From assembly GCA_023055425.1 (NCBI GenBank), contig JALGPY010000009.1, positions 34,639,275 through 34,703,274 on the forward strand: a DNA stretch of 64,000 nt, in the 5' to 3' direction. This document shows, piece after piece, positions 1 to 60,345 of this stretch. The translations under genes and the position numbers were made by a program. This DNA is from Linanthus parryae. Lineage: Eukaryota; Streptophyta; Magnoliopsida; Ericales; Polemoniaceae. Positions within the stretch are counted from its first letter, which is position 1. Every line of letters starts with the position of its first letter. The notes below the pieces were generated by a model. That model was not told where the DNA came from, made no database searches, and saw nothing but the letters and a program-made list of their open reading frames with translations.

Positions 1-1554
1 AGGCCGTACTTGGTCGGGTCAAAAGTGATCGTTTTTACCGACCATAGGGCCCTGAAATATCTACTGGACAAGAAGGACGCAAAACCAAGACTGCTGAGGT
101 GGGTATTACTGATGCAGGAATTTGATGTGGAAATCCAAGATAAGAAGGGAGTCGAGAACGTAGTAGCGGACCACCTGTCCAGGCTTGAGAATGTTGAGGT
201 GGACCCGGTACCAATCCAGAAAAAACTTCCCGGACGAGCATATCATGGCAGTTAAACTGGGGAGACCATGGTACTATGCTCTAGCCAACTATCTGGTGAG
301 TGGCACACTTCCCGAGGACCTAACCCGTCACAGCGGAAACGGTTTATTTCTGAGAGCCGGCAGTATTTCTTGGACGACCCGTATCTGTTCAAGCAGGGAG
401 TCGACAACATTCTGAGAAGGTGTGTTCCGACCCATGAGGCCTGGAATGTAATCCGTCACTGTCACTCGGCTCAGTGTGGAGGTCACTTCGGAGGGACCCG
501 CACGGCACACAAGGTACTGCAGTCAGGTTTCTTTTGGCCAACACTTTTCAAGGACTGTCATGATTATGTACAGGGATGTGATAGATGCCAGAGGACAGGG
601 AGTACGTCACATAGGGACGAGATGCCTTTGACTATTTGGCAGGAAGTTGAACCCTTTGATGTATGGGGGATTGACTTCATGGGGCCGTTTCCGTCTTCTA
701 TGGGAAATTTGTACATACTGCTGGCGGTAGACTATGTTACAAAGTGGATCGAGGCGATAGCGTGTCAGAAAAACGACGCATCGACAGTTGAGCGTTTTCT
801 GAAACGCAACATATTTACACGATTCGGGACCCCCAGAGCAATGATCAGCGATGAAGGGTCACACTTTATTAACAAAGTGTTTTCAAGGGTACTTAAGCAG
901 TACGGGGTGTCTATCCATGAGGTATCACTGCCTTATCATCCCCAGACTAACGGACAGGCTGAAGTGTCAAACAGAGAGATCAAGGGCATTCTCTAAAAAA
1001 CCGTAAATCTGGGCAGAAAGGATTGGTCAATGAGACTGGATGATGCGTTGTGGGCATACAGGACAGCCTTCAAAACACCGCTGGGAATGTCACCATACCA
1101 GCTCGTGTTTGGGAAAGCGTGTCACCTTCCAGTTGAGGTAGAGTATAAGGCCTATTGGGCTATCAAACTGCTCAACATGGATGAGAGTCTGGTCGGAGAT
1201 AAGAGAAAGATGGCGCTGCTGGAATTAGAGGAGTTCCGCAGAACGGCATTTGAGAGCGCCAAAATTTACAAAGAGAAGACGAAGAAGTGGCATGATCAGC
1301 GAATCACGCCAAAGCAGTTTAACGAAGGGGACAAAGTGCTTCTCTACAACACAAGAATGAGGTTCTTTCCGGGAAAATTGAGATCTCGTTGGTCAGGGCT
1401 GTCCATCATCAGGAAGATATTCGCATCGGGCGCATTTGAGCTGGAAAATCCAAAAGATAACTCAAACTTCAGGGTGAACGGAAACCGAATCAAGCCATAT
1501 CTCGAGAACGCCGAAGTGGCCAGGGTAGATCCATTTTACTTCGACGACCCGTGA
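1..1554 (+). pseudogene. Athila-type Ty3/gypsy pol, C-terminal part (RNase H end and integrase), decayed
   Basis: This is the 3' end of a retrotransposon polyprotein; it copies and integrates the element. The window opens inside RNase H ([11 protein letters not shown] near 30-60, then VADHLSRL at 160-185). An integrase HHCC zinc domain follows at about 433-590 (H..H..C..C, ending GCDRCQ). The catalytic core shows GIDFMGP near 670, ISDEGSHF near 850 and NGQAEVSNREIK near 960, giving the D, D and E positions. The C-terminal part contains [16 protein letters not shown], wording typical of the Athila/Tat branch. Breaks: the reading frame shifts near 220 and back near 335, a TAA stop interrupts at 994-996, and the frame continues to TGA at 1552-1554. 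The element is not functional here. Assignment to Ty3/gypsy is firm; the Athila label rests on the downstream env-like ORF and overall layout. Confidence 0.93.
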
Positions 1555-1801: not shown

Positions 1802-2142
1802 GTGTGCGTATTTTACGCACAAGTTGTGCGTATTTTACGCACACCGATGCCAAAATAACCAAAGTTTGAAAAAAAATGAAAAAATATTTTAGCTGCTTTC
1901 TGCGTATTTTACGCAGCTTTCTGCGTATTATACGCAGCCAGCAGTATAAACAGTATTTTTCTGAATTTTTGAAAAAAAATAAAAAATAAATAAATTTGCA
2001 GTTTTACCTGCTGTCTGCGTATTTTACGCAGGTTTCTGCGTATTATACGATGACAGCAGATAAAAATGCAATTTTTTTTAGTTTTTGATACTCCGGTACC
2101 CCTGTGTGCATAAAATACGCACAATATACGTATTATATGCAC
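1802..2142. repeat. Internal array of four pairs of short palindromes (TGCGTA...TACGCA)
   Basis: Eight dyad-symmetric motifs come in four pairs: 1802-1822 with 1824-1844, 1900-1916 with 1921-1937, 2015-2031 with about 2036-2052, and 2105-2123 with about 2125-2142. The first and last pairs have the TGTGCGTA type of arm; the middle two have the CTGCGTA type. The fourth pair and the last member of the third are degraded. AT-rich DNA separates the pairs. The same design is found in the two Athila LTRs of this window. The block sits between pol and the env-like ORF. Role is inferred: transcription-factor dimer sites or RNA hairpins. Confidence 0.85.
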
Positions 2143-2198: not shown

Positions 2199-2210
2199 TA
2201 GGGTTTAAAA
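2199..2210 (+). promoter_or_regulatory. Candidate TATA-like box upstream of the env-like ORF
   Basis: TTTAAAA at 2204-2210 lies about 60 bp after the last internal palindrome and about 600 bp before the ATG at 2818. This mimics the LTRs, where the palindromes end 76-78 bp before a TATA box. It is a weak motif on its own; proposed only because of the shared layout. Confidence 0.25.
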
Positions 2211-2817
2211 GAGAGGGGGCCGGCCATGGGAAGCCATTTTTGGCCTTCAAGCTTTCTCTCTCTACCTCCATTCCTCTCTAGCACCAACACACCAATTTTT
2301 CAAAAGTGCCCGTAATAAAAAATCGAATGTATATTTGGAATCCCCTCGTCGCAAGGAGCACGGAACTAGTCTCGGTTTTCATAAATTCAAATCGAGCTAG
2401 TGTGGGGGTTGAAGGAAATTGAAGGGTGTTCTTGAGGAAAAATCTTGGATTCGTAGAGTTTAAGCAAAACCGGAAAAAATCGTAGAAGGAAAGGTTGAAG
2501 AGGAGGAAGAAGACTACGTGTGGGTGTGACCGGAATTTCATTCCGGCAAAGTCGACTTTTCCGGCGACTTTTCCGGCGATAACCTTACCGGATTCTTTAC
2601 TTCACCCCCTTTGTGGGAAGGTCCAACTTTCATTCCCTCGCTTTATTTTTCCGTTTTAAGCACGACCCGTAGCCGGGTCATTATTTCTGCAATTTTCTCG
2701 GTTTCCGTGCCGTGTGGACCTCTTGTAGATCTTAGGGGGCTTATTTGCTGAGGCGCACGACTTCACGCGCACGTACTCTAGATTTCTGTTTCTGCTCGTT
2801 TTTTTTTTATATTTGTC

Positions 2818-3663
2818 ATGGCTTTGGTCAAACCTGTCGTAGACCCGAACCGTAGGCATGAGCCCATTGATATCCTTTCAAAAGACCTTAGGCCGCATTA
2901 CTTTGACAGTTATCGTTTTGTGAACTACGCGGCCCATTCCTATTATCTGACGGGTAAGAAGCCGAACTATACGTTGGCTAAGGATTTCCGTTACGAAGTA
3001 GATGACGATAGGATGCCTTTTCAGATGGTGAATTTTGCTAGTCGAGCAGACATTTTTGGCACTGCACTAATTGGATTTGAGGGTGCGTCGAGTTCCACAT
3101 TGACTAGGGAGTTATTTTGCAACCTGTTATATGCTGGCGATGGCAAAAACACTGACACGCGGTGGGTCTATTGTCGTCGCGACTATATCCTGCTGACCTC
3201 CGAGTCCATTAGGCAAGCTTACGGGATTGCACCATCCCAAGAGCCGTGTGCGTACCAGTTGGTTCTAAACAACCCTCCGTCGGGTGAGGAAATTCTGAGG
3301 GAATTGACGGGTGGGGCCACGGGGGCCCACTTTGAGGAGGATGGACACCTAGAGCTTAAGCTGCATTCTGGATATCTGTGCAAACCCGCCAAATGGGGGG
3401 CCGAGTGGGTGGTGAACCGCATTGTGGGGATCCAGCACTTTACTCACCTAGAGAATGAGTCTACCCTTATCGTGTACTGTCTTATGATGAGGAGGCGGAT
3501 CGATATCGCCCATCTTACTTGGGCTTACATTCAGGAGCGGAACGTCGCCGCGAGCCGGATGGGTCTCGGGTATAGCAACCTGATTATCCAACTGGCTCGT
3601 ATCTATCATATTCCCATCACAGAAAACGAGGGTGATTGGCTGCCTCCTATACAAGTCCTATAG
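2818..3663 (+). CDS. Athila env-like ORF, first segment (281 aa)
   Basis: An open frame begins with ATG 2818 after about 1.26 kb without coding sequence following pol, the place where Athila elements carry their extra 'env-like' ORF. It is hydrophilic with no clear signal peptide or membrane helix. Features include DILSKDLRPHYFDSYRFVNY near the N terminus, FCNLLYAGDG in the middle and HLTWAYIQERN near the end. This resembles the conserved N-terminal part of the plant-transposon proteins found behind gypsy pol genes. The frame stops at 3661-3663 where the reading moves to another frame, so the product is probably truncated by a frameshift. Function in the family is not settled; the 'env' name reflects position only. 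No plant host gene is implied. Confidence 0.75.
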   Translation: MALVKPVVDPNRRHEPIDILSKDLRPHYFDSYRFVNYAAHSYYLTGKKPNYTLAKDFRYEVDDDRMPFQMVNFASRADIFGTALIGFEGASSSTLTRELFCNLLYAGDGKNTDTRWVYCRRDYILLTSESIRQAYGIAPSQEPCAYQLVLNNPPSGEEILRELTGGATGAHFEEDGHLELKLHSGYLCKPAKWGAEWVVNRIVGIQHFTHLENESTLIVYCLMMRRRIDIAHLTWAYIQERNVAASRMGLGYSNLIIQLARIYHIPITENEGDWLPPIQVL

Positions 3664-6211: not shown

Positions 6212-6493
6212 TGATAACGCCCAAATCGGGGTTATCTTATAGCTCGGTTTTTGTGCGTTTGTGCCGGAAAAATGATGTTTTAGCCAATTTTCACCCTCGG
6301 AAGGCCTCGGTTTTAGGAACGAGACAGTTATTTGCTCTTTGTAAATTTCTGCATTTTCCGTACTTTTATTGGATATGATCGCGGGTGTGTTCGTGATGTC
6401 TATGCAGGAACAGGGCTCGGGAATGCAGCAGGAATTGCTCGGGAATGCAGCAGGAAGCAAAAAGAGGCAGAAAAGAGAACCCTGCCTTGCTGT

Positions 6494-8220
6494 CTGCGTA
6501 TTTTACGCAAGCAGGCTGCGTATTATACGCAAACAGCAAGGTTGGTGAAGGGTTTGTTGGAATAGATGCCCTAGAGGCAATCGTAGATTTAGTATGAACA
6601 ATGTTTTGGCTAGAATATTCATTTATTATTTATTGCGATATTTAATATAATGAAGTCCTTAGATAAAATGTGTTGTTTATCTTAAATATCCCTAGTCCAT
6701 TATATTGATTAATAGGACAATCAAATATAGACTAGTATGTGGGTAGATTGATATGGGGATATCAAGTCTAACACATGGGTATGCATTAGGAGTAATGGCA
6801 TACTGGATTGACCCACGACGAAAAGGATACATTAGATTATGTGAAGTCACAATCGCTTTTCGTAGTGCTAATATTATTACAATCCTTGGACTTGAAGTCA
6901 CTAGATACTCTAGTTGTGAAATATTGCGCTTTGATGTCATCAAACGTTACACCGTAACTGGGTAATCATAAAGGTGGCTATCGGGCGTGATAGGAAGCAA
7001 GCTTAGAGATCGTAGTGATGTAGATAGGATTTGTCCCTCCCACATAATGGGGGTAAATATCCACGGCCACTCGAGGGATGAGGCTTATTGAATGTCTGGC
7101 CAGACTCAGATAAATTAATATATAGATATTAATGTTATCTGCAAGTATAAGCATATTCCCAGGATCGAGGAACTATGGATTGGATATACGAGTGTGACTA
7201 TATATGTCTCGTGTCCAATCCAGATATGGTGACAAAGGGATAATGCAATATGATATATTGGGCACAAAGGTTTGTCGGGATCACTGACTATTTCTATGGG
7301 TTGGGTGGCATGGATGTGTTGCTAGACACCACTCCATGTTAGTAATAGTTACTACCAACTATATAGAAACCTATGGGGTCACACGTCAAATAGAGTAGAG
7401 CTAGATTTGGGATTAATTAATATAGATTAATTAATAGAAGGATCATTGTGCAACACCTTGCAAACTTAGTGGGACTAATTTGCAAGGAAGGGAATAGTTC
7501 TAGTCTTACTAGAACAAGGAAACTCTAATATGGAAACAACAAGGAGTTGTTGGAGTATATATATAAGAGGCTCTAGCTTCCTTCCCACAAGATTGTTATT
7601 AGACATAACATAAGGAGTGGGAGAGAGCAAAAGAGAGAGCAAGACAAGAGCTAGGCTGAAACCTAGCCCCGTCCGCCCCCTCTACCCGACGGCAAAAGGA
7701 GGCCCCGAGCCCCTTTTGTGCTTTGTTTCCTTTGATCTTCTTCCCTCTTCCCCCGGGTTCAAGCTAGCACTTGTTTGAAGTAAGAATATAGATCTCACCT
7801 CTAGACGTGGATCAACCGTAGAGACGAGGACATCATTCTTCGTGTGATCTCACAAATCTAAAGGTACACATCTTCTATGACCCTAATCAGGTTATGATAT
7901 CTCTTCCTGTGATCCTTGGTGGGCTTTGAGTAGGATTAAATTTTTGTTATTCCGCTGCGTTACCTACGTCAAAACCCAACAGGGTTTTGGCCAGTTTTCT
8001 CCCCTGTCTGCGTATTTTACGCAGCATCTTGCGTATCATACGCAGCTAGGGGGAGAAAATACGCAGAAGGAAGAAGAAGAAGGCACAAAGTGGGTCCCTG
8101 TCTGCGTATTTTACGCATGGGCTGCGTATAATGCGCAGACAGCAGCAACAAGGGAAGAAAACAGCACAGGAGAAGACCCTGGCTGCGTATTTTACGCAGC
8201 AGGCTGCGTATAATACGCAG
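6494..8220. repeat. U3 array of four palindrome pairs (CTGCGTA...TACGCAG) in the + Athila LTR
   Basis: Pairs lie at 6494-6510/6516-6532, 8008-8024/8028-8045, 8102-8118/8122-8138 and 8183-8199/8204-8220. The first member of each pair has a TTT centre and the second usually a TAA, TTA or TCA centre. The copia LTR inserted between pair 1 and pair 2; without it, pairs repeat every 81-94 bp. The last palindrome ends 78 bp before the TATA box at 8298. Confidence 0.9.
6555..7981 (+). mobile_element. Copia solo LTR, 1427 bp, TSD GGGTT
   Basis: It starts TGTTGGAATAGATGCCCTAG and ends TCAAAACCCAACA, with terminal TGTTGG/CCAACA inverted ends. GGGTT occurs at 6550-6554 and again at 7982-7986. It is related to the solo LTR at 50735-52161 and to the 3' LTR at 30882-32281. 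A TATA-like TATATATATAAG lies near 7556-7567. No internal sequence remains, so it arose by LTR-LTR recombination. Confidence 0.95.
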
Positions 8221-8297
8221 ACAGCACAAAAATTGAGGCGGTTTCGGGCAGTGGCAGTTTCGTCAATAAAGACAAGTTCCAGAAACTTCTCCAGCAC

Positions 8298-8306
8298 TAT
8301 ATAAAA
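8298..8306 (+). promoter_or_regulatory. TATA box of the Athila LTR
   Basis: TATATAAAA in the context CAGCACTATATAAAAACTCG. The equivalent box in the antisense LTR is at 54336-54345. Transcription would start about 30 bp downstream by the usual plant rule. Confidence 0.7.
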
Positions 8307-9238
8307 ACTCGTCCAGACTCGTTTTGAAGACAACAATTCATCCAAGGAGAAGTCTGAGCATCCCCGGAGAGCACGAAAGCACTCATCCAGATCCGAAGAC
8401 TTAGTTTGATCTTATTCTCTCTCTTAATTTCAGAAACTTTGTTAATTCATTATGTCGTTTAGTAGCTAAACCTTTTACCTAGGTTCTCGGTGAACCTAGG
8501 GTTTCGTTTTCAGACATTGTTCTGCAGTTTGATTATGAATTCATGATTACGTTATCTTAATTCAGCAGTATTATCAGTTATTCTGTCTTTGATTATATCT
8601 GTTTATGCATGATCGGAGTCGCAAACCAGAATTGCTATAGACCCGAGCCTGTAGGTGAAAACGTCAGGTTAGGGTTAGGAAGAAAAGACAGGATTTAGTA
8701 CCTTACCCTGATAGACCGACCAGGGAAAGGGAGATAGGGCTAGCCAAAACGTATAGACCAACTGTTAGAGAATTTGACCTGGGCCATCAGGACAGGTTAG
8801 TAACCCTAGCAGACTTAGGAAGCTTAACAGGAACCTGAAAGTCTGCAGGATCGTGACAGCATGTGGAATCTGAAAGGTTACTGCACAATCGGTACGTGGC
8901 ACGGGCAATTAAAACTGCTAAGTGTTTTCATATCAAAACGAAGAACATAACTCTGAAGAAACCCTAGGGGATCCTGGGACCTAGTATTCCAAACCCTAGA
9001 TTTACAAACTTTCAAGATTTTCAGAAAAACATCACAAAAAGTATTTACGTTTTATTTGTTTATTTTTAGTTTATAAGCAATCATAATCCTAAACTACTCC
9101 CCCTTTTACACTCTGCAAGTTAAAACTAATTTCTCGAAAAACTCAAAATAGTCCTCATGGGAACGATCACCCGAGTTTAAATACACCCGGTATTACAAGA
9201 TTCGTATACTTGCGAACATCACGTTAGTTTGCGCATCA

Positions 9239-40917: not shown

Positions 40918-41993
40918 GATGGCATCAGAGCCAAGTTCCGTGAAGAGACATGATTGGAAACTTAAGAGGTGGCTAGTAGTTTCGAAACTGAAACTAGATA
41001 GGAAGCGAGACTATAGCTGAAACAGGATTTGTGGGTGAGTACACGGACAAGAATGTTATATGTGCATCTCTTGTCCAACTAGGCCGATGTGGTGGAACCT
41101 AAGGCAGAGGTTCATAGTTATTGTCGTGTATGACTATCAAATAAAAATTAAATAAAAATAAAAATAGAATGGAACTGAGAATGGACAGTGGATGTAGACA
41201 AGTGAAGTGTAGATGACATCGCTACCGGAATGATCCAGGACTCAAGGGAAAAGGTGACTTTAACATTGGTGTTGGCTGAGTTTTCTCATTAATAGCGGGA
41301 AAGTGGGCACATGTTACTGACCCAAAATTGGGAAGAGTGATTCCTTGGTATGATAATTGTCTTCGGACGTCTGGGCCGTGGCTACAGACATGAGTATTAT
41401 AATTGTCTTCGGACGTCTGGGTCGTGGCTACAGACATCAGTATCATAACTGTCTTCGGACGTCTGGGCCGTGGCTACAGACATGAGTATTATAATTGTCT
41501 TCGGACGTCTGGGCCGTGGCTACAGACATGAGTATTATAATTGTCTTCGGACATCTGGGCCGTGGCTACAGACATGAGTATTATAATTGTCTTCGGACGT
41601 CTGGGCTGTGGCTACAGACATGAGTATTATAATTGTCTTCGGACGTCTGGGCCGTGGCTACAGACATGAGTATTATAATTGTCTTCGGACGTCTGGGCTG
41701 TGGCTACAAACATGAGTATTATAATCGTCTTCGGACGCCTGGGCCTTGGCTACAAACATGTGTGTATCTGGATATGATCCAGATGAACTATTATCATGAT
41801 TACGAACCTGACGAATTGCTAACAGGAAGACAGAGAACATTAAAGACATGATGAAAATCCGAAAAAGTAAGTTGAGACTACGTCTGAAACCTGAAGTGCA
41901 AGTCAAGAAACTGGGAAAAGCAGGTAAGTGTCAGATGAACTAAATAATAGTACGAGATCTTCGAGGACGAAGATTCTTTTAAGGGGGGTAGAA
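40918..41993 (+). mobile_element. Family A internal region 1 (1076 bp): PBS, 46-bp minisatellite, PPT
   Basis: PBS TGGCATCAGAGCC at 40920-40932 lies 2 bases behind the LTR and has one mismatch to the Met-initiator site. A nine-unit minisatellite is at 41355-41768. The PPT CTTTTAAGGGGGGTAGAA ends at 41993. No ORF longer than about 75 codons has coding character. Confidence 0.92.
41355..41768 (+). repeat. 46-bp minisatellite, 9 units (array 1)
   Basis: Units read AATTGTCTTCGGACGTCTGG then GCCGTGGCTACAGACATGAG then TATTAT. Each holds GTC-TTCG-GAC (a UUCG tetraloop hairpin in RNA) and GTCTG...CAGAC arms. Unit 2 has CATCAGTATCAT and the last unit CATGTGTGTAT in every array. Confidence 0.95.
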
Positions 41994-44920: not shown

Positions 44921-45996
44921 GATGGCATCAGAGCCAAGTTCCGTGAAGAGACATGATTGGAAACTTAAGAGGTGGCTAGTAGTTTCGAAACTGAAACTAG
45001 ATAGGAAGCGAGACTATAGCTGAAACAGGATTTGTGGGTGAGTACACGGACAAGAATGTTATATGTGCATCTCTTTTCCAACTAGGCCGATGTGGTGGAA
45101 CCTAAGGCAGAGGTTCATAGTTATTGTCGTGTATGACTATCAAATAAAAATTAAATAAAAATAAAAATAGAATGGAACTGAGAATGGACAGTGGATGTAG
45201 ACAAGTGAAGTGTAGATGACATCGCTACCGGAATGATCCAGGACTCAAGGGAAAATGTGAATTTAACATTGGTGTTGGCAGAGTTTTCTCATTAATAGCG
45301 GGAAAGTGGGCACATGTTACTGACCCAAAATTGGGAAGAGTGATTCCTTGGTATGATAGTTGTCTTCGGACGTCTGGGCCGTGGCTACAGACATGAGTAT
45401 TATAATTGTCTTCGGACGTCTGGGTCGTGGCTACAGACATCAGTATCATAACTGTCTTCAGACGTCTGGGCCGTGGCTACAGACATGAGTATTATAATTG
45501 TCTTCGGACGTCTGGGCCGTGGCTACAGACATGAGTATTATAATTGTCTTCGGACGTCTGGGCCGTGGCTACAGACATGAGTATTATAATTGTCTTCGGA
45601 CGTCTGGGCTGTGGCTACAGACATGAGTATTATAATCGTCTTCGGACGTCTGGGCCGTGGCTATAGACATGAGTATTATAATTGTCTTCGGACGTCTGGG
45701 CTGTGGCTACAGACATGAGTATTATAATCGTCTTCGGACGCCTGGGCCGTGGCTACAAACATGTGTGTATCTGGATATGATCCAGATGAACTATTATCAT
45801 GATTACGAACCTGACGAATTGCTAACAGGAAGACAGAGAACAACAAAGACATGATGAAAATCCGAAAAAGTAAGTTGAGACTACGTCTGAAACCTGAAGT
45901 GCAAGTCAAGAAACTGGGAAAAGCAGGTAACTGTCAGAAGAACTAAATAATAGTACGAGATCTTCGAGGACGAAGATTCTTTTAAGGGGGGTAGAA
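44921..45996 (+). mobile_element. Family A internal region 2 (1076 bp)
   Basis: Same layout as internal region 1: PBS TGGCATCAGAGCC, nine-unit minisatellite at 45358-45771 and PPT before 45997. Non-coding. Confidence 0.92.
45358..45771 (+). repeat. 46-bp minisatellite, 9 units (array 2)
   Basis: Same unit as array 1, with the same position-specific variants in unit 2 and the last unit and a few private changes (AGTTGTC in unit 1, TTCAGAC in unit 3, GGCTATAG in unit 7). Confidence 0.95.
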
Positions 45997-48922
45997 TGTA
46001 ACACCCTGTAAATTTTTAGAGGGTTCAAAAGCAATATTTTAAAATTTAAGGATCAATGTGTGAATTTTGAGATTTTTGTGTCAGCTGAAATCTAGGGAGT
46101 ATGATAATCAAGATGATAAGGTGATGATTTGTATCTAATCTCTAGTCAAGGGGTTAAAATATAATTTATAGGAAGAGCAATTACCTTTATCTACCCTAAA
46201 CTTTACAAAGACTATAAATAAACCCCTCATATGTGTCATATCCTCATAATAGCACATGCCACCACTTGACACCTCACCAAATGAGGTGTAAGGTGTCAAG
46301 CCCCTAGAACCTCTGTACAACTTTTATAAACCATTCAAGAGATGATTCAAAGGGGAGTTTTTGGGGGAAAAAGGCTCCAAAGAATTGGAGGAACTAATCT
46401 ACCGTCCAAACATAGCAATCACTCTACACTCCAATACTCGTGCTGCTACCAAGAGTATCTCAGGTTATGGTCAGAAAAAGCCCTCGGTGAACTGGAGATT
46501 TCAATGAGCAATAAGGGAGAAAACCGGGTAAGAAGTTGAAGAACCCTAATTCGGTTTCGATTGATTGCCTAATCTTAGAACAATTTCAGATAAATTAACA
46601 GTCGTTTACTGGGTTTTTTTTTGAGGTCGAGGCGAGTCTATTTCCCTTTAATCATAGCCAAACTCGTCGGAATTATAGAACTGCCAGTTTTGGGTTCGCT
46701 ATTGTCACCGGTAAAAGCCATGGTTGCTTGCATTGATAAGTTTTTGTTTCCCCCGTTAAATCCAAATACTAAATTGCTCGTTGTGATACCTCTATACTCA
46801 GTTGGCATATTACATCATTGATTGATGCCCAGGTCGCGGTCAGATCACATCTTGATTCATTGGGAGTTGTTATTTTTTTATTGTTTTTTTAGGATGAACA
46901 TAGCTTGTTCATATACATATAACACCCTATTTGAATTAGGGAATTGTGAGATTTTTGGACCTGGGTAACCTATACACCTAGGGCTATAGCTTTCGTGTTG
47001 ATTTTCTCCTTTGAAATTCCTTGTAAGCAACCTGAAAATCGAGCTAAAGTCTCTGAAAACTGAAAACTGAGAAGTTCACCGGTAGTGTTCTTAGCTGTTT
47101 GGAGTGGTCAAATCCCAGACCTTATCTCTAATTACCTGTTTGATGAAAATAGTTGAAATTTGGATCAGGACATTCAAGTATAACAGCACTACAAGTACTA
47201 TGTGGATCAAATGTTTGAATTCAGCTTTCAAATGCCCCAAATTCTCAATCAAAGAACCAACAAATTACAGCTACAAATGAAGCAGCAACATAGTGTGCTA
47301 AATTTGCACCCCATATAGTGGTCAATTCCTGATGAAAAGACCTGGCATTTGATGCTGGACACTCTCCAATATCAATACTATGAGTTGCAAAGTTCAACTC
47401 TTGAACTAAATCAATCATTTAGTCACCTTAAGAACATGGTGAAGTTGATGATATTAAGTTTATGGGTGCTTCATGGATTTTTGCAGAATCTAGGAACCGC
47501 CGTGACTTGTTGGCGGTTGTGCACGAGTTGTTCCTTTCGGTTCTTGGGATTAATAGCAATATGTTTATGTTGAATAGTTGGTTTGAAATCACCTCTGACC
47601 CACCTGCTGTGATTAAAACTATTAAAAAGTATATAAATATATATATATGTATATATATTGGACTAAGTTGTTTGCTTGGCAAGGTGCACTTGGTATCTCT
47701 CATTAACTTATGAGTATTACTACTCTGTTAATATGATTTGGTATATATGAGATAGCTAAGGCATTTCTTAAGCTCCTTATACTAAGTTGTTTGATTGAAA
47801 TGTCTGTAGCAATGTTGTGTGTGCTGTGTTGTATAGACATGTAAATAGAGGAGAAAATCATTAAGGAGGAAGATATAACAATAATCATAATAAATGAATT
47901 AAACATTAGAAACTGAAGCATCATCATCCCATAATTAAAGGGACTTATAAGTGGGAATAAATTATAGAGTATATGGACCACCAAGTGTGATAATCTTGAA
48001 GAAGGTATTACAGCTAGCTACTACATAAATCTGATGCAAAGCTGTTTTGATCCATTAACATGAAATCACATGAACTAAATTTATGAGGGTCCAATTACGC
48101 CATTTCTTATTCATATGGAAATACGAAGGAACTGATAAGAAAAGCACAACATGCTACAAAATGTTGAATAAATGGAAGCGCATAATTTACCACCTTGTGT
48201 ATTTTAAATCATAAAGAGATCAAATATGTTGAAGAAATCTGGGAACGCAATCTACAAAGACTCATTCAAATTCTCATATTCTTAACTGACTATAAAGTTG
48301 ACTAGATAAGAAAATTTCTTTATAATATTGTTTTTTTGATTTGACTGGTCAAATGATCTGAATGGCTAAAATGCCCTTCTGGAACGGTGTTCAAAATAAC
48401 ATTCTGTCTGCAAGGAGCAAGGTTAGCGAAGTTTGACTTTTCAGAAACCTAGTTTGACTGAGCTGTATATGAGGGGCAAACCAGTAATTTTACATTAACT
48501 TGAGTCAAACAATCTAATCGGAACTCATAACATGACATCATGCCTCCCTATAAGACTCACAATGTTTGGAGTCAGTCTGCATCCATCAGAGCTGAATTTG
48601 ACTTGACTAAAAGTCAACTATAGGGTTTTTTATGGAGTTTTACTAAACTGTAAGAACTTGAGTACAGTTAAGTAAAAAGTTTTAGTTTGCAATACTTAGT
48701 GTATCAAGAGGGGTGAGGAATCATACTATCCTAATTATAGACTGACTAAGTATTATTATAAAGTTTTCAGTCTTTAGTTTATTTATTTTGTCTCGTAAAC
48801 AGAACCGTCCGTTAGGGTTAGACTCCTTGCTGAGGCCTTTCCATGCCTTAGCGGAGGACACTCCCATGAGTCTGGGGAATCTAAGTGCAATTTCTCCAGT
48901 ACTGCTGGGTGGGGGTGTTACA
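45997..48922 (+). repeat. Family A LTR 3 (2926 bp)
   Basis: Begins TGTAACACCC and ends GGTGTTACA. In the second half it groups with LTR 2. Confidence 0.95.
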
Positions 48923-49951
48923 GATGGCATCAGAGCCAAGTTCCGTGAAGAGACATGATTGGAAACTTAAGAGGTGGCTAGTAGTTTCGAAACTGAAACT
49001 AGATAGGAAGCGAGACTATAGCTGAAACAGGATTTGTGGGTGAGTACACGGACAAGAATGTTATATGTGCATCTCTTTTCCAACTAGGCCGATGTGGTGG
49101 AACCTAAGGCAGAGGTTCATAGTTATTGTCGTGTATGACTATCAAATAAAAATTAAATAAAAATAAAAATAGAATGGAACTGAGAATGGACAGTGGATGT
49201 AGACAAGTGAAGTGTAGATGACATCGCTACCGGAATGATCCAGGACTCAAGGGAAAAGGTGACTTTAACATTGGTGTTGGCTGAGTTTTCTCATTAATAG
49301 CGGGAAAGTGGGCACATGTTACTGACCCAAAATTGGGAAGAGTGATTCCTTGGTATGATAATTGTCTTCGGACGTCTGGGCCGTGGCTACAGACATGAGT
49401 ATTATAATTGTCTTCGGACGTCTGGGCCGTGGCTACAGACATCAGTATCATAACTGTCTTCGGACGTCTGGGCCGTGGCTACAGACATGAGTATTATAAT
49501 TGTCTTCGGACGTCTGGGCCGTGGCTACAGACATGAGTATTATAATTGTCTTCGGACGTCTGGGCTGTGGCTACAGACATGAGTATTATAATCGTCTTCG
49601 GACGTCTGGGCCGTGGCTACAGACATGAGTATTATAATTGTCTTCGGACGTCTGGGCTGTGGCTACAGACATGAGTATTATAATCGTCTTCGGACGCCTG
49701 GGCCGTGGCTAGAAACATGTGTGTATCTGGATATGATCCAGATGAACTATTATCATGATTACGAACCTGACGAATTGCTACAGGAAGACAGAGAACAACA
49801 AAGACATGATGAAAATCCGAAAAAGTAAGTTGAGACTACGTCTGAAACCTGAAGTGCAAGTCAAGAAACTGGGAAAAGCAGGTAAGTGTCAGAAGAACTA
49901 AATAATAGTACGAGATCTTCGAGGACGAAGATTCTTTTAAGGGGGGTAGAA
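48923..49951 (+). mobile_element. Family A internal region 3 (1029 bp)
   Basis: Same PBS and PPT as the other two. It is shorter by one minisatellite unit. Non-coding. Confidence 0.92.
49360..49727 (+). repeat. 46-bp minisatellite, 8 units (array 3)
   Basis: One unit fewer than arrays 1 and 2; the shared special units 2 and last are kept, so the loss was inside the array. Confidence 0.95.
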
Positions 49952-52900
49952 TGTAACACCCTGTAAATTTTTAGAGGGTTTAAAAGCAATATTTTAAAAT
50001 TTTGGGATCAATGTGTGAATTTTGAGATTTTTGTGTCAGCTGAAATCTAGGGAGTATGATAATCAAGATGATAAGGTGATGATTTGTATCTAATCTCTAG
50101 TCAAGGGGTTAAAATATAATTTATAGGAAGAGCAATTACCTTTATCTACCCTAAACTTTACAAAGACTATAAATAAACCCCTCATATGTGTCATATCCTC
50201 ATAATAGCACATGCCACCACTTGACACCTCACCAAATGAGGTGTAAGGTGTCAAGCCCCTAGAACCTCTGTACGACTTTTATAAACCATTCAAGAGATGA
50301 TTCAAAGGGGAGTTTTTGGGGAAAAAGGCTCCAAAGAATTGGAGGAACTAATCTACCGTCCAAACATAGCAATCACTCTACACTCCAATACTCGTGCTGC
50401 TACCAAGAGTATCTCAGGTTATGGTCAGAAAAAGCCCTCGGTGAACTGGAGATTTCAATGAGCAATAAGGGAGAAAACCGGGTAAGAAGTTGAAGAACCC
50501 TAATTCGGTTTCGATTGATTGCCTAATCTTAGAACAATTTCAGATAAATTAACAGTCGTTTACTGGGTTTTTTTTTGAGGTCGAGGCGAGTCTATTTCCC
50601 TTTAATCAGAGCCAAACTCGTCGGAATTATAGAACTGCCAGTTTTGGGTTCGCTATTGTCACCGGTAAAAGCCATGGTTAATAAGTTTTTGTTTCTCCCG
50701 TTAAATCCAAATACTAAATTGCTCGTTGTGATACTGTTGGAATAGATGCCCTAGAGGCAATCTAGTTTAGTATGAATTTGTAATTGGCTAGAAAATTCAT
50801 TTATTATTTATTGGATATTTAATATAATGAAGTCCTTAGATTTACAATCGTGTTGTTTATCTTAAATATCCCTAGTCAAGTATAATGATTAATGGGACAA
50901 TCATCTATAGACTAGTATGGGGTTGGATTGATATGGAGATATCACGATCCAACACATAGGTGTGCATTACGGAATGTCGCACTGGATTGACCCATCACCG
51001 AGAAGGCTACATACACGTTATGTTGAGTCACAAGTGCTTCTCGGGTACAATGGTATTGTCATCCTTAGACTTGAAGTCACTAGATATTCTAGTTGTGGAT
51101 CATTGTGATCTTGGTAGCGTTAAACGCTACACCGTAACTGGGTAGTTATAAAGGCGTGTACTGGATACAATGAGAAGCAAGCTTAGAGATCGTAGTGGAC
51201 GTAGAGAGGATTTGCCCCTCCCACATAACGGGAGCAAATATCCAAGGCCACTCGAGGATAGTGCTTATAGAATGTCTGGCCAGACTCAAATAAATCAATA
51301 TGGGATATTGATGTTATTTGCACGAATAAGGCTATTCCATGGATCGAGAAACTAGGGATTGGATATACGAGTGTGACTTGTATGTCTCGTGTCCAATCCG
51401 GATATGGAGGCAAAGGGATGAGACAATTACTTGTACAAGGTTGTCTAGATGACTATTCTATTAGTTGGCTAGAATGGATGTTTTGCTAGAAACCGCTCCA
51501 TATTAGCAAAGAGTTGCTACCAACTAGATAGAACCTATGGGGTCACACGCTATATAGAGTTGTACTAGATTTGGGAATTAATTAATTGGATTAATTAATT
51601 AGAAGGATCACTTTGCAAACCCTTGCAAACTTAGTAGGGACTAATTTGCAAGGAAGGGACTAAATTGAATTCTAGTAGGACTAGAATAAGTCCTTTAGGT
51701 AGTTAACAAGGAGTTGTTGGACTATATAAAGGACCCTCCTTCCTTCCTTCCTCATAACTTATGCTCTAAAGAGAACATAACAAGAGTGGGAGAGAACAAA
51801 GGAGAGAGAGAGCAAGCAACAAGGAGGACGCCCCCCCCTTGCCGCCGCCCCTCGTCCCCGACGCCACAAGAGGGCCGAACCCCCTCTTTGTGCCTCGTTT
51901 TGCGTGATTCCTTCACCCTCCTCTCATTCCGGGCTAGCACCAAGGAGATTGGAGATCTAGGATCAACTCTAGGCGTGGATCAACTATAGAGAACGTGACA
52001 CTATTCGCGTTTGAAGTCATCAAGGAGAACCCAAAGGTGTGTTTATGATTTCTTACCTTCACTATCGTTATGCATCTAGACTTGTGATCCTTGGAGGGTT
52101 TTGCATGGTTGTTTGTTTGATTATGCTTCCGTTTGCGCGATCCATGAATCAAAACCCTACAGATACCTCTATACTCAGTTGGCATATTACATCATTGATT
52201 GATGCCCATGTCGCGGTCAGATCACATCTTGATTCATTGGGAGTTTTTATTTTTTTATTGTTTTTTTAGGATGAACATAGCTTGTTCATATACATATAAC
52301 ACCCTATTTGAATTAGGGAATTGTGAGATATTTGGACCTGGGTAACCTATACACCTAGGGCTATAACTTTTGTGTTGATTTTCTCCTTTGAAATTCCTTG
52401 TAAGCAACCTGAAAATCGAGCTAAAGTCTCTGAAAACTGAAAACTGAGAAGTTCACCGGTAGTGTTCTTAGCTGTTTGGAGTGGTCAAATCCCAGACCTT
52501 ATCTCTCATTACCTGTTTGATGAAAATAGTTGAAATTTGGATCAGGACATTCAAGTATAACAGCACTACAAGTACTATGTGGATCAAATGTTTGAATTCA
52601 GCTTTCAAATGCCCCAAATTCTCAATCAAAGAACCAACAAATTACAGCTACAAATGAAGCAGCAACATAGTGTGCTAAATTTGCACCCCATATAGTGGTC
52701 AATTCCTGATGAAAAGACCTGGCATTTGATGCTGGGCACTCTCCAATATCAATACTATGAGTTGCAAAGTTCAACTCTTGAACTAAATCAATCATTTAGT
52801 CACCTTAAGAACATGGAGAAGTTGATGATATTAAGTTTATGGGTGCTTCATGGATTTTTGCAGAATCTAGGAACCGCCGTGACTTGTTGGCGGTTGTGCA

Positions 52901-54284
52901 CGAGTTGTTCCTTTCGGTTCTTGGGATTAATAGCAATATGTTTATGTTGAATAGTTGGTTTGAAATCACCTCTGACCCACCTGCTGTGATGAAAACTAAT
53001 AAAAAGTATATACATATATATATGTATATATATTGGACTAAGTTGTTTGCTTGGCAAGGTGCACTTGGTATCTCTCATTAACTTATGAGTATTACTACTC
53101 TGTTAATATGATTTGGTATATATGAGATAGCTAAGGCATTTCTTAAGCTCCTTATACTAAGTTGTTTGATTGAAATGTCAGTAGCAATGTTGTGTGTGCT
53201 GTGTTGTATAGACATGTAAATAGAGGAGAAAATCATATAACAATAATCATAATAAATGAATTAAACATTAGAAACTGAAGCATCATCATCCCATAATTAA
53301 AGGGACTTATAAGTGGGAATAAATTATAGAGTATATGGACCACCACGTGTGATAATCTTGAAGAAGGTATTACAGCTAGCTACTACATAAATCTGATGCA
53401 AAATTGTTTTGATCCATTAACATGAAATCACATGAACTAAATTTATGAGGGTCCAATTACGCCATTTCTTATTCATATGGAAATACGAAAGAACTGATAA
53501 GAAAAGCACAACATGCTACAAAATGTTGAATAAATGGAAGCGCATAATTTACCACCTTGTGTATTTTAAATCATAAAGAGATCAAATATGTTGAAGAAAT
53601 CTGGGAACGCAATCTACAAAGACTCATTCAAATTCTCATATTCTTAACTGACTATAAAGTTGACTAGATAAGAAAATTTCTTTATAATATTGGTTTTTTG
53701 ATTTGACTGGTCAAATGATCTGAATGGCTAAAATGCCCTTCTGGAACGGTGTTCAAAATAACATTCTGTCTGCAAGGAGCAAGGTTAGCGAAGTTTGACT
53801 TTTCAGAAACCTAGTTTGACTGAGCTGTATATGAGGGGCAAACCAGTAATTTTACATTAACTTGAGTCAAACAATCTAATCGGAACTCATAACATGACAT
53901 CATGCCTCCCTATCAGACTCACAATGTTTGGAGTCAGTCTGCATCCATCAGAGCTGAATTTTACTTGACTAAAAGTCAACTATAGGGTTTTTTATGGAGT
54001 TTTACTAAACTGTAAGAACTTGAGTACAGTTAAGTAAAAAGTTTTAGTTTGCAATACTTAGTGTATCAAGAGGGGTGAGGAATCATACTATCCTAATTAT
54101 AGACTGACTAAGTATTATTATAAAGTTTTCAGTCTTTAGTTTATTTATTCGGTCTCGTAAACAGAACCGTCCGTTAGGGTTAGACTCCTTGCTGAGGCCT
54201 TTCCATGCCTTAGCGGAGGACACTCCCATGAGTCTGGGGAATCTAAGTGCAATTTCTCCAGTACTGCTGGGTGGGGGTGTTACA
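49952..54284 (+). repeat. Family A LTR 4, split by a copia solo LTR
   Basis: Without the insert at 50735-52161 and the extra GATAC it is about 2.9 kb. It has a small deletion near 53236 relative to the other LTRs and ends GGGGGTGTTACA at the outer TSD. Second-half variants match LTR 1. Confidence 0.94.
50735..52161 (+). mobile_element. Copia solo LTR, 1427 bp, TSD GATAC
   Basis: Starts TGTTGGAATAGATGCCCTAG, ends CAAAACCCTACA, with GATAC at 50730-50734 and 52162-52166. The other family A LTRs show the uninterrupted GTGATACCTCTATACTCAG. TATA-like GACTATATAAAGG lies near 51720. It is the same family as 6555-7981 but clearly diverged. Confidence 0.96.
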
Positions 54285-54335
54285 CCGACTTCTCCTTGGA
54301 TGCGTTGATCTCCTTTAAAGCGAGTCTGGACGTGT

Positions 54336-54345
54336 CTTTATATAG
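54336..54345 (-). promoter_or_regulatory. TATA box of the antisense Athila LTR
   Basis: Minus-strand CTATATAAAG, in the context GCACTATATAAAG, matching CAGCACTATATAAAA at 8293-8306. The nearest palindrome begins 76 bp upstream on its strand. Confidence 0.7.
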
Positions 54346-54420
54346 TGCTAGCGACGTTTCTGGAACTTGCCTTTATTTACGAAACTGCCACCGACCGAAA
54401 CCGCCTTGGAGTATGTGCTG

Positions 54421-54729
54421 TGTGCGTATAATACGCACAGGGTGTGCGTAAAATACGCACACAATGATCCTGGAATGTGCTGATTTACTTCATGTCTGCG
54501 TATTTTCTTCCATGTGTGCGTATAATACGCACAGGTGTGCGTAAAATACGCACACAGTGGCCTGTCCTGTGCAGTTTTTTCTCATCTTTGCGTATTTGTC
54601 CTCCATGTGTGCGTATAATACGCACAAGTGTGCGTAAAATACGCACACAGGGACTCTTGCTGCAAAAAATCACCCCATCTCCTTGCTGTGTGCGTATAAT
54701 ACGCACAGGTGTGCGTAAAATACGCACAT
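54421..54729. repeat. U3 array of four palindrome pairs (TGTGCGTA...TACGCACA) in the antisense Athila LTR
   Basis: Pairs: 54421-54439/54442-54462, 54515-54533/54535-54555, 54608-54626/54628-54648 and 54689-54707/54709-54729. The first member of each reads TGTGCGTATAATACGCACA; the second has a GTAAAATAC centre. Pair period is 94, 93 and 81 bp. Half motifs CTGCGTATTTT (54496) and TTGCGTATTTG (54587) lie between. Confidence 0.92.
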
Positions 54730-55593
54730 AGTGAACTTCTCAGCTCATTTCTGCTTCCTCTGCCTCGGCCTGCGTTTTAACCCGAAATTTGTCAAAATTA
54801 CCAAAATATCCCTGGGTCGAAACCGCTCCAAATTCTGCCCAATCCCGACTCTGGTCCTTGAAAGACTGCTAACTGAATCTGGGCGCCAAAATCCAACCTC
54901 GACTTCGAAAGCCCGGACACGGTGCCAAATGACCAAAATATCCCTGGGTCAGAACTGTCTCGCAAATCGTCACGAACATGAAACAGTTATTCACGACTCC
55001 GGACACTGGGAACCGAGACTCCTTACCTGGGCGTTGCCTGTCTAGGACCCACACTTGACGTGAGTCGGTTTTTCGGCCGGACTCCGTTTTAACATTATGA
55101 CCTGTTTTCGAAAATCCCTCGACGTCTTCGTTCTTTTGCCCTTGGTTTCACTTCAAATTCCAAGCCAAGCTCAAGATATTATCAACCGAGCGCATCCCGA
55201 TCATTCTCGGTTTTTGCCTTTTTCAGCTTCCTTGGCCGGTTTTCACTACCCGTTTCCCTCCAGTCTTTTTGTTTTCTGTTTCACTATCCCTTTTTCCCCG
55301 TCTCGGTCACATCCTGCTCCGAGCATTTTCTGCACGTTTCCCAAGGCGAACCCAATTTTGTCTCGGCACGCATCCCAATGCAGTTCCCGAACTTGTTCCT
55401 GTAACGACAACATGAACAAACCCGCGATCATATCCAATAAAAGTACAAAATACGCAGAAATTTTCGAAGAGCAAATAAACGTCTCCTTCCTATTTCCGAG
55501 GCTTTGTGAGGGTGAATTCTGCCTAAAACATCGTTTTCCGGCACACATACACATCTTTTCCGGCTATAAGATAACCCTTGTGGGGAGTTCTCA

Positions 55594-57157: not shown

Positions 57158-59901
57158 TGTGACGACCCGTCACACTTTTAATAATAAAAATCGATTATTT
57201 GATAAAAATCACGGTTTACTGTCAACCCGTCTGACACTTTCAGACTTCTAAAACTCAACCACCAGGACACAGTCCTCTGAACAACATTTTCAATAATATT
57301 TCTGAAAATCCGGTACGTGACTGAATTTAGTAAATAATTACACCAGCTCGTCAAAATGACAGTTTATATTAATATTTGGTCAAACCAGCAATTTACAACA
57401 AATTATTAAAAACAGCTAAAAATAACATTTTTAACAAATAAATACAATTTTTAGCTACAACACCGCGATCCCGTCGCGCTCCAGGTCAACCTGTAAAATA
57501 AAGGGGTGAGCCAAAATAGCCCAGCAGGTACCGCCTAACTGCTGGCGTAGAAATTTAAAAGCCACTTAAACTGTACCGGCTAACAGGAAATCATACATCA
57601 CATACCACATCAATAACATGATTATTCACCCAACAATCACAATATCACTTAAAAAGCTGTAAATAATCAACCCACATACGTATACACACATACCCCGTAA
57701 ATACAGTAAACTTGGAAATTAAATTTCCCCTACCTCTTACAAAGCAAAGCTCCACATACACTGATAGCCCCCTTTGCCAATAGTTTGAAAATTAAACCCA
57801 AACTTAGTCCTTTTTCTATTCTTCAAACCCACTGCCGAAGGTAAGAAAATGGTAGTCCTTTCTCACACTTTGATTATGTTCTAGGTAAAAATCCCAAGTT
57901 AACATATGACTAAGCACACTAATATTTTATTTGGGATAATTAGATGACATGTGGCGTTTATCAAATCAATTACTTCAACATAAGGTAACACATGTAAGCA
58001 TGGTAGATGTAAGAGCTCAGAAAATAGATTAACATGATAGCTATGAGGAATTCTAGCCACGTAAAGGAGACCATTAGGAGAAAGTTGCCCAATTCATCTC
58101 ATTTTAACTACACAATGACACAATGACCCCTATAAAATAAAGAATTACAAAAGTCACACTATTGAATAATTACAAGACCTAACATGCATGGAATAAGTAA
58201 CAAGCATTATATATTCTATGTAGTTTTGTATTATCATAGAACATCAACAAATGAGTAAAATTAAGCTATAGTGTATCAATATCAAACCAATTGATGCTAA
58301 TATCACAAAAAATGCCACTATAGACATTCACTAACCATGTCATCACATACGAAATAAACTGTAAAGTTTAAATACTCGTAGTTACGGGGTCTCACAATCT
58401 ACCCCACTTATAATAATTTCGTCCCGAAATTACTAAAAAATCACTTTCACTTTAAAAAAAATGTCACGTACCAATCACCGCACATCACCTCCACCACCCA
58501 AGCAGTACTAGACTGTTTACCTCTAGCTCGAGAGTGCAGTGGCTCACAAGTGTGGTGACTCACAAGTGCCTACCTCTTGTACGACACCAGTCACAGACAC
58601 CTGCCAAAACACCCGCCCAGTCCCAGATACACTATCCGTACCTCCGGTTGGGTCAGACTCTGATACCACTGTGACGAACCGTCACACTTTTAATAATAAA
58701 AATCGAATATTTGATAAAAATCACGGTTTACTGTCAACCCGTCTGACACTTTTAGACGTCCAAAACTCAACCACCAGGACACACTGTCCTCTGGACAACA
58801 TTTTCAATAATATTTCTGAAAATCGGAGACGTGACTGAATTTAGTAAATAATTACACCAGCTCGTCAAAATGACAGTTTGTATTAATATTTGGTCAAACC
58901 AGCAATTTACAACAAATTATTAATAACGGCTAAAAATAACATTTTTAACAAATAAATACAATTTTTAGCTACAACACTGCGATCCAGTCGCGCTCCTGGT
59001 CAACCTGTAAAATAAAGGGGTGAGCCAAAATAGCCCAGCAGGTACCGCCTAACCACTGGCGTAGAAATTTAAAATCCACTTAAACTGTACCGGCTAACAG
59101 GAAATCATACAGCACATACCACATCAATAACATGATTATTCACCCAACAATCACAATATCGCTTAAAAAGCTGTAAATAATCAACCCACATACGTATACA
59201 CACATACCCCGTAAATACAGTAAACTTGGAAATTAAATTTCCCCTACCTCTTACAAAGCAAAGCTCCACATACACCGATAGCCCCCTTTTCCAATAGTTT
59301 GAAAATTAAACCCAAACTTAGTCCTTTTTGTATTCTTCAAACCCACTGCCGAAGGTATGAAAATGGTAGTCCTTTCTCACACTTTGATTATATTCTAGGT
59401 AAAAAGCCCAAGTTAATATATGACTAAGCACAACAATATTTTATTTGGGATAATTAGATGACATGTGGCGTTTATCAAATCAATTACTTCAACATAAGGT
59501 AACACATGTAAGCATGGTAGATGTGAAAATAGATTAACATGATAGCTATGAGGAATACTAGCCACGTAAAGGAGACCATTAGGAGAAAGTTGCCTAATTT
59601 ATCTCATTTTAACTACACAATGACACAATGACCCCTACAAAATAAAGAATTACAAAAGTCACACTATTGAATAATTACAAGACCTCACATGCATGGAATA
59701 AGTAACAAGCATTACATATTCTATGTAGTTTTGTATAATCATAGAACATCGACAAATGAGTAAAATTAAACTATAGTGTATCAATATCAAACCAATTGAT
59801 GATAATATTACAAAAAATGCAACTATAGACATTCACTAACCATGTCATCACATACGAAATAAACTGTAAAGTTTAAATACTCGTATTTACGCGGTTTCAC
59901 A
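57158..59901 (-). mobile_element. Family C small LTR element, 2744 bp, TSD ACTCG
   Basis: LTRs at 57158-58396 (3' on minus) and 58670-59901 (5' on minus) start/end TGTGACGACCCG...CTCACA on plus. The minus-strand PBS TGGTATCAGAGTC (58656-58668) follows the 5' LTR, and the PPT AAGTGGGGTAGAT (58397-58409) precedes the 3' LTR. The internal region is 273 bp and non-coding. ACTCG flanks at 57153-57157 and 59902-59906. It lies midway between a TRIM and a LARD. Confidence 0.94.
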
Positions 59902-60345
59902 ACTCGTGGTTTCTCAATGTTATTAAATTGAGAGGTTTTTGTTACTCGGTTACTTCCAGTTGTTCCAAATTCTACAACATGATAGTTCTACTGTTTCAAT
60001 ATTCTGATTTGTTTCAACTCATGCTTCCGTGCCACTCGTTGCTTTACATGTCGTAGTATGTATTTACTCAGTTTTTACTGATCATTTATTCAAAACTGCG
60101 TCGACTTTTGCAATTTTAAAACCGCAGGTCGTCAATCAAGTTTGGGGAACGGGAACACGGATCGAGACGAAGAATTTTAGCTTAAGTCAGATCACTTAGT
60201 AGATCACACACGATTTGTTTTAGATTGTACTAATTATCGAAATTTTGGTATGTACTTTAACCGAAATGTAAATTTAATAGTTAATAATCTACTTTTGGTT
60301 ATCGATTGTCGCATTAACCCTGAACCGAGATCCCGGGTCGTTATA
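59902..60345 (+). mobile_element. Family B gypsy 5' LTR, part 2 (end of LTR)
   Basis: Continues ...ACTACTCG|TGGTTTCTC across the family C insertion and ends GGGTCGTTATA, a changed TGTTACA terminus, 2 bases before the PBS. Confidence 0.7.

Follow-up and report, generated by a model that had tools for sequence, protein, structure and literature searches.

Paired TGCGTA palindromes in Athila-like retrotransposons of Linanthus parryae: arrays before the LTR TATA box and in the internal region that may serve as operators for a dimeric factor

The closest described counterparts of the arrays reported here are the repeated motifs (RMs) of Sireviruses, which belong to the Ty1/copia superfamily (Bousios et al. 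2010, PMC2829016). Like our arrays, the RMs are dyad-symmetric, contain CG in their core and are present in many copies ahead of a conserved TATA box, within the upper half of the LTR, with further copies between pol and the envelope-like gene; the authors backed the hypothesis of an internal promoter serving this extra gene. The palindromes of maize Sireviruses (Bousios et al. 2016, cited through PMC10760457) also form strongly folding clusters in the LTR cis-region, where they are small-RNA hot spots, while the maize survey itself, in the parts of PMC10760457 consulted, describes no clear peak of this kind of structure among Ty3/RLG elements. On the Ty3/gypsy side, Grande and Retand resemble our elements in having extra genes between pol and the 3' LTR (PMC11963269, which also cites a title on Grande's own promoter); the extra genes of Retand are mostly antisense, and paired palindromes are absent from the excerpts of its description in that paper. 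In sunflower, the 3' additional ORF (aORF) of Athila 14 has the PF20167 domain, related to PF03078 of Athila ORF1, and its product is predicted to be nuclear (PMC11728184).

In the stretch of 64,000 nucleotides of L. parryae DNA analysed here (the window), a similar layout is found in elements that combine a Ty3/gypsy integrase with an Athila-type aORF (Table 1). The core is TGCGTA/TACGCA and the CGG-CCG signature of Sirevirus cores is absent, as it is from the Sirevirus Tnd-1 (PMC2829016). The fixed pairing at 20–22 bp and the two-state base flanking the half-sites distinguish the Athila-like arrays from the RMs as the consulted parts of the same paper describe them. A preliminary description, made from the DNA letters, had known of no named element of this kind in Athila LTRs. 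The literature searched, which was covered in part, indeed contained no TGCGTA palindrome motif for Athila, but since Sireviruses have dyad arrays before both the LTR TATA box and the extra gene (PMC2829016), the kind is already known; superfamily and motif are what differ in the Athila-like elements.

The window contains 20 exact copies of TGCGTANNNTACGCA (TGCGTA-N3-TACGCA), against none in shuffled sequences, or 24 palindromes against 1.0 when up to two mismatches are allowed, and these palindromes make up three arrays (A, B and C) of four pairs each. The centre-to-centre distance within the pair is 20–22 bp in all 12 units, and the pairs recur every 81–94 bp in the LTR arrays and every 91–115 bp in array A. 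All eight palindromes of array C are exact, with pair starts at 54423/54445, 54517/54538, 54610/54631 and 54691/54712 and periods of 94, 93 and 81 bp. The pairs of array B start at 6495/6517, 8009/8030, 8103/8123 and 8184/8205, with a mismatch in one of the eight palindromes; restoration of the empty site of the copia LTR that divides this array gives spacings of 82, 94 and 81, and the same spacing is seen in the other LTR of the plus-strand element, just upstream of the window (at about L133:2235-3848). The four pairs per LTR and their 81–94 bp period had been reported in the preliminary description, which placed the array ends 76 and 78 bp from the TATA box; pairs and period were borne out, and TATATAAA begins 79 bp past the last palindrome in both LTRs of the window. 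The arrays are not confined to the LTRs, however, as the internal array A had been missed; it has five exact palindromes and three with one or two mismatches, mixes both arm types, and its longest foldback pairs 1981–2031 with 2036–2086 at 82% complementarity. Half-sites without a partner trail some pairs by about 25 bp, and counterparts of the one tabulated for array B lie at 54589 and 54497 in array C. The RM arrays of Sireviruses define CpG islands; in the window, the observed/expected CpG ratio is 1.75 in array A, 0.94 in B and 1.13 in C, compared to 0.77–1.11 in flanking stretches and 0.71 in the window as a whole. No known RNA family was found in the window.

Table 1. Positions of the arrays, of their host elements and of associated features in the window
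Feature	Position	Strand	Remarks
Ty3/gypsy integrase region	268..1554	+	spread over two ORFs; the first matches rve and Integrase_H2C2, the second no family
Internal array A	1805..2141	+	four pairs, between the integrase end and the extra ORF
Weak TATA-like box TTTAAAAG	2204..2211	+	63 bp past the internal array
Pyrimidine-rich block, 36 bp	2249..2284	+	identical in four aligned elements (window, L126, L129, L130)
3' additional ORF (aORF), first part	2818..3663	+	PF20167 (Transposase_32), Athila aORF domain
3' LTR of the plus-strand Athila-like element	6212..9238	+	encloses copia solo LTR 6555-7981
LTR array B, pair 1	6495..6531	+	separated from pairs 2-4 by the solo copia LTR
LTR array B, pairs 2-4	8009..8219	+	half-sites mostly C-type
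Lone half-site	8060..8065	-	about 25 bp past pair 2 of array B
TATA box of the plus-strand LTR	8298..8305	+	
Array-bearing part of the solo Athila-like LTR	54285..55593	-	rest at 37992-37124; target duplication ATAAC
TATA box TATATAAA of the 54.4-kb LTR	54337..54344	-	
LTR array C	54423..54726	-	four TGCGTA-N3-TACGCA pairs; 16/16 half-sites of G type (GTGCGTA)

The Athila label given to the array-bearing elements at the outset is supported by the aORF, which matches PF20167, the domain of the sunflower Athila element, at 7.2e-13. No chromodomain was found in 1030–1554, and the species-named relatives among the 120 listed were plants. The combination of a Ty3/gypsy integrase lacking a chromodomain with an Athila-type aORF supports, at the level of sequence, the assignment of the element as Athila-like. 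Neither integrase nor aORF had confirmed relatives in the viral and prokaryote collections; a protein search with the aORF piece passed 0 of 366 candidates, the best hit of a solved-structure search (cytochrome b5, E 0.073) was taken as chance, and a single-sequence structure model of the piece, with a mean pLDDT of 31.9, was not used. Genome-wide, 138 copies of the aORF were scored of 5,890 candidates, many having open frames of about 555 codons.

Both array-bearing LTRs of the window are interrupted by later insertions. The solo LTR with array C runs on the minus strand from 55593 to 37124 and is divided by a 16.3-kb insertion (37993–54284), which has the ends TGTAACACCC/GGGTGTTACA and the duplication CCGAC. 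This insertion comprises three tandem 4-kb units, each with a 46-bp minisatellite of 8–9 copies, and a further repeat copy; it has the appearance of a multimeric LTR element that is nested within the solo Athila LTR. The solo LTR itself apparently lies within a copia element, with an integrase to the left of 37119 and, as judged by eye, gag/protease sequence to the right (55594 onward). The copia solo LTR within the LTR of array B has a 5-bp duplication GGGTT and is one of three related copies, 77–86% identical (6555–7981, 30884–32277 and 50735–51992). The window also contains a direct duplication of about 1.24 kb (57158–58397 and 58670–59902, 95.6% identical).

Exact TGCGTA-N3-TACGCA palindromes occur 8,879 times in the 1.51-Gb genome, compared to 25 occurrences of a reversed-pattern control. 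To collect LTRs of the family, the genome was searched for the palindrome-free 126-bp TATA block from array C, and the 40 LTRs scored are the best-scored of 1,529 candidates, a sample biased towards the subfamily of array C. The array is present in all 40, with 4–8 palindromes at up to two mismatches and 1–8 exact ones, only one to three exact copies being left in some of the LTRs. In every one of them, exactly 7 bp separate the end of the last palindrome from the TATA block, whose start was extrapolated for matches that set in a few bases late. Among the 116 consecutive spacings below 25 bp, 92 are 21 bp, 22 are 22 bp, one is 20 bp and one is 14 bp, so that 115 fall within 20–22 bp; the check proposed in the preliminary description, whether other family members have the arrays and a constant pair spacing, is thus answered positively for the scored LTRs. 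The arrays are also present in an element of recent insertion, whose LTRs are 99.6% identical over 1,098 bp and have two of the eight LTR palindromes degraded in both, which indicates that the full array is not strictly needed. The paired pattern had no match in the viral and prokaryote collections; single palindromes were matched in viral contigs (L001–L120 among the matches listed, 80 shown, one site each) and were not used. At G000:C57:18931175-18938673 a mixed-type palindrome recurs at least eight times every 1,066 bp (once 1,086 bp), and this repeat seems to be a satellite-like tandem array including a piece of an Athila-like element.

The base adjoining the half-site is mostly C or G, and the two arms of a dyad share the same state. 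The 288 sites of the fetched loci (leaving out L134, which lies within the window) comprise 128 C...G, 95 G...C, 15 mixed and 50 other sites, whereas 117 mixed sites would be expected among the 238 with C or G on both arms; genome-wide, 6,557 C...G sites stand against 200 mixed ones. The G-type site reads GTGCGTANNNTACGCAC. The arm types first ascribed to the two LTRs were found as described, the 54.4-kb LTR being GTG...CAC throughout and the plus-strand LTR C...G at 12 of 16 half-sites, with 4 of 16 of neither type. The compensatory change of the arms, which had been claimed from these two LTRs, holds at the base beside the half-site but not for the longer outer arms in the 40-LTR sample. In most of the 40 LTRs nearly all sites have one and the same state, and several LTRs are mosaics. 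In ten elements (without L132, a place with a single exact palindrome, and L169, which has no integrase match) the G share of the LTR arrays tracks the internal G share (r 0.90, Spearman p 0.014, kinship uncorrected). Both G-type elements of the ten have a pure G internal array; the C-type elements have C in the middle internal units and often G in the end units, with an internal G share of 0.06–0.48.

Arrays B and C differ at 1 of 96 core positions (cores defined on C alone) and at 85 of 171 aligned letters between the palindromes, and while all 16 core CpGs are retained, only 6 of 15 are in the remainder of the block. Comparison of the two LTRs from the plus-strand element gives 3 differences in 96 core positions versus 61 in 1,497 other sites, and the cores are not specially protected after insertion. 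In eight within-element LTR pairs, each counted from both sides, the cores differ at 38 of 1,148 positions and the rest at 332 of 7,316 (ratio 0.73). Between elements, 80 random pairs among 34 LTRs (ten of 44 being left out, namely eight second LTRs, L155 and L162) give 811 of 11,084 for the cores versus 20,673 of 71,054 for the rest (ratio 0.25), and the cores are slower in 79 of the 80 pairs. Core divergence near that of the rest within elements and far below it between elements indicates that the cores are kept in the transposing lineage, while homogenisation of short tracts could be another way of keeping them alike.

We consider it fairly probable, from these sequence patterns, that the arrays are a promoter-proximal operator or enhancer for a dimeric factor, acting at the LTR promoter and probably also at an internal one. 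The fixed TATA distance, the pair spacing of two turns, the lineage-level conservation of the cores and the coupled flanks all fit an operator for a dimeric protein. Each 15-bp dyad would be the site of a dimer on two TGCGTA half-sites, two dimers would be placed about two helical turns apart (20–22 bp), and up to about four such dimer pairs would be held at a constant distance from the LTR TATA box, ahead of it. In this scheme the protein binding, its activating rather than repressing effect and the internal promoter are the steps that we infer. The functional interpretation of the preliminary description is upheld by the presence of the arrays in 40 of 40 scored LTRs and by the covariation of the flank base, and of the options that it named a homodimer-type site is the best reading; its RNA/DNA hairpins are weakened for the LTR array by outer arms that do not covary.

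Two plant factor families with similar half-sites were considered and rejected. For both, the half-site fit is loose and the N5 spacing of the arms here is different. The VOZ site is GCGT-N7-ACGC. The flank base of our arrays, C or G in most cases, departs from the T of TTGCGT. Palindromic NAC sites share with the arrays the convergent half-sites with a CGT/ACG core, suited to a dimer, and the NAC core T[G/A]CGT is similar to our half-site; the spacing, however, is CGT-N5-ACG instead of the CGTN7-8ACG of the palindromic NAC site (PMC4081100, in the parts consulted).

The second array, which lies ahead of the extra ORF and of a conserved pyrimidine-rich block, would mark the internal promoter, probably operated by the same factor. 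The internal array recurs in nine of the ten other elements probed. It follows the integrase in all seven integrase-matched elements (that of the window, L164–L168 and L170) and is found at the corresponding place, by position alone and not by an integrase match, in L126, L129 and L130; L169 showed no integrase match and no internal array where one would be expected, a single pair lying at the margin of the piece examined. The array precedes the aORF in all three elements with a listed aORF (window, L126 and L130), where the aORF starts about 675–705 bp past it, and no aORF of L129's element was among the matches listed. It is also present in all six elements with an integrase in which tblastn detected no aORF between integrase and LTR (L164–L168 and L170). 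The LTR blocks of these six elements are 7.6–7.9 kb apart in five cases. Since the internal array is kept where no aORF was detected, service to the aORF cannot be its sole reason, and this explanation was dropped. This differs from the four RM-bearing Sireviruses without ENV, which lack the linker copies (PMC2829016, in the parts consulted). The core of the pyrimidine-rich block, TCTACCTCCA, is kept in all six elements in which the aORF was undetected, and the TTTAAAAG box, with 7 of 8 positions matched, does not exceed chance expectation, as 214 of 394 background stretches also match at 7 or more of the 8. An internal promoter following the internal array, and not for the aORF alone, appears likely.

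It is also possible, though in our opinion rather doubtful, that the pairs function as hairpins, folding either in single-stranded cDNA or in the element RNA, there within the internal array and within U3 at its 3' end, the fold being used for processing, export, stability or extra-ORF translation. The 12 window units do form better folds than their shuffled versions (z -2.8 to -8.5, the weakest being equalled by 4 of 200 shuffles); 8 of their 22 pairs are changed on both sides, and their covariation score is above that of 500 of 500 shuffles. The outer arms of 43 internal units pair far above permutation, at 124 of 215 for positions 6–10 against 76.9 permuted (largest of 20,000: 102) and at 143 of 258 for positions 11–16 against 98.3 (largest 128). 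In the 106 LTR units left of 122 after those with identical outer flanks were dropped, however, the first flank base covaries (0.83 own versus 0.43 other) and nothing beyond it does: positions 4–8 are paired at 275 of 530 versus 262.6 (sd 8.8), and positions 9–12 and 13–16 are below the permutation mean. The idea that pair units are long hairpins in general was rejected on these data, and for the LTR array a hairpin is less well supported than one would think from the window. The outer-arm effect is located in the internal arrays and also, as judged by eye, in LTR units 1 and 2 of the plus-strand subfamily of the window. The pair centres, TTT or TTA in the first palindrome and mostly TTA in the second, are conserved yet largely unpaired in the long hairpin (L127, the second LTR of the L125 element, was left out of one centre/pairing count), which favours a reading of duplex DNA, and RNA needs neither the two-turn pair spacing nor the fixed TATA distance. 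The evidence on the LTR array thus points to duplex DNA, while the fold may matter for the internal array.

A bolder version of the operator reading, which we regard as distinctly unlikely, is that the dimeric factor is encoded by the element itself. In foamy viruses one element-encoded factor controls two promoters. By analogy, a protein of the Athila-like element, for which the product of the PF20167 aORF is the candidate, would bind both the LTR array and the array before its own gene, so that one factor would serve two promoters; the G state of array C would trace a change of specificity, and the ORF-less elements would be parasitic. The two G-type elements read do have internal arrays in the same G state as array C, but no aORF was detected in either of them, which counts against a self-encoded factor.

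The symmetry might also be driven by mutation, if template switching during reverse transcription perfects imperfect palindromes and homogenisation acts on short tracts, the result having hardly any function or none. Such a process accounts for the coupled arms and for the long internal foldbacks without selection, and the C/G state is often uniform within one LTR. We nevertheless consider it very unlikely, as it leaves the fixed 7 bp to the TATA block and the 20–22 bp spacing unexplained and the near-identical cores of arrays B and C adjoin unit-specific arms that diverge; the post-insertion loss of core positions in the plus-strand element is uncorrected, though this tests host replication only. 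That the arrays are chiefly a source of host small RNAs and CpG methylation, as argued for the maize Sirevirus palindromes, is exceedingly improbable even though their best 110-nt windows (C -52.1, B -50.5, A -45.2 and B1 -42.1 kcal/mol) pass the -40 kcal/mol threshold for miRNA-like regions (PMC10760457), as do 0.55% of 550 background windows on one strand, since a silencing target would be a cost to the element and leaves the long-term conservation unexplained, and the authors of that argument, in the parts consulted, themselves suppose an underlying cis-regulatory need.

Sireviruses and the Athila-like family, which belong to unrelated superfamilies, have the same layout, with dyad arrays ahead of the LTR TATA box and again ahead of the extra gene, and this common layout suggests a shared solution for driving two promoters. 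The expression of the envelope-like and additional genes of plant retrotransposons is an old question that now becomes directly testable, and the thousands of natural variants of one putative operator are a resource for finding the factor that binds it.
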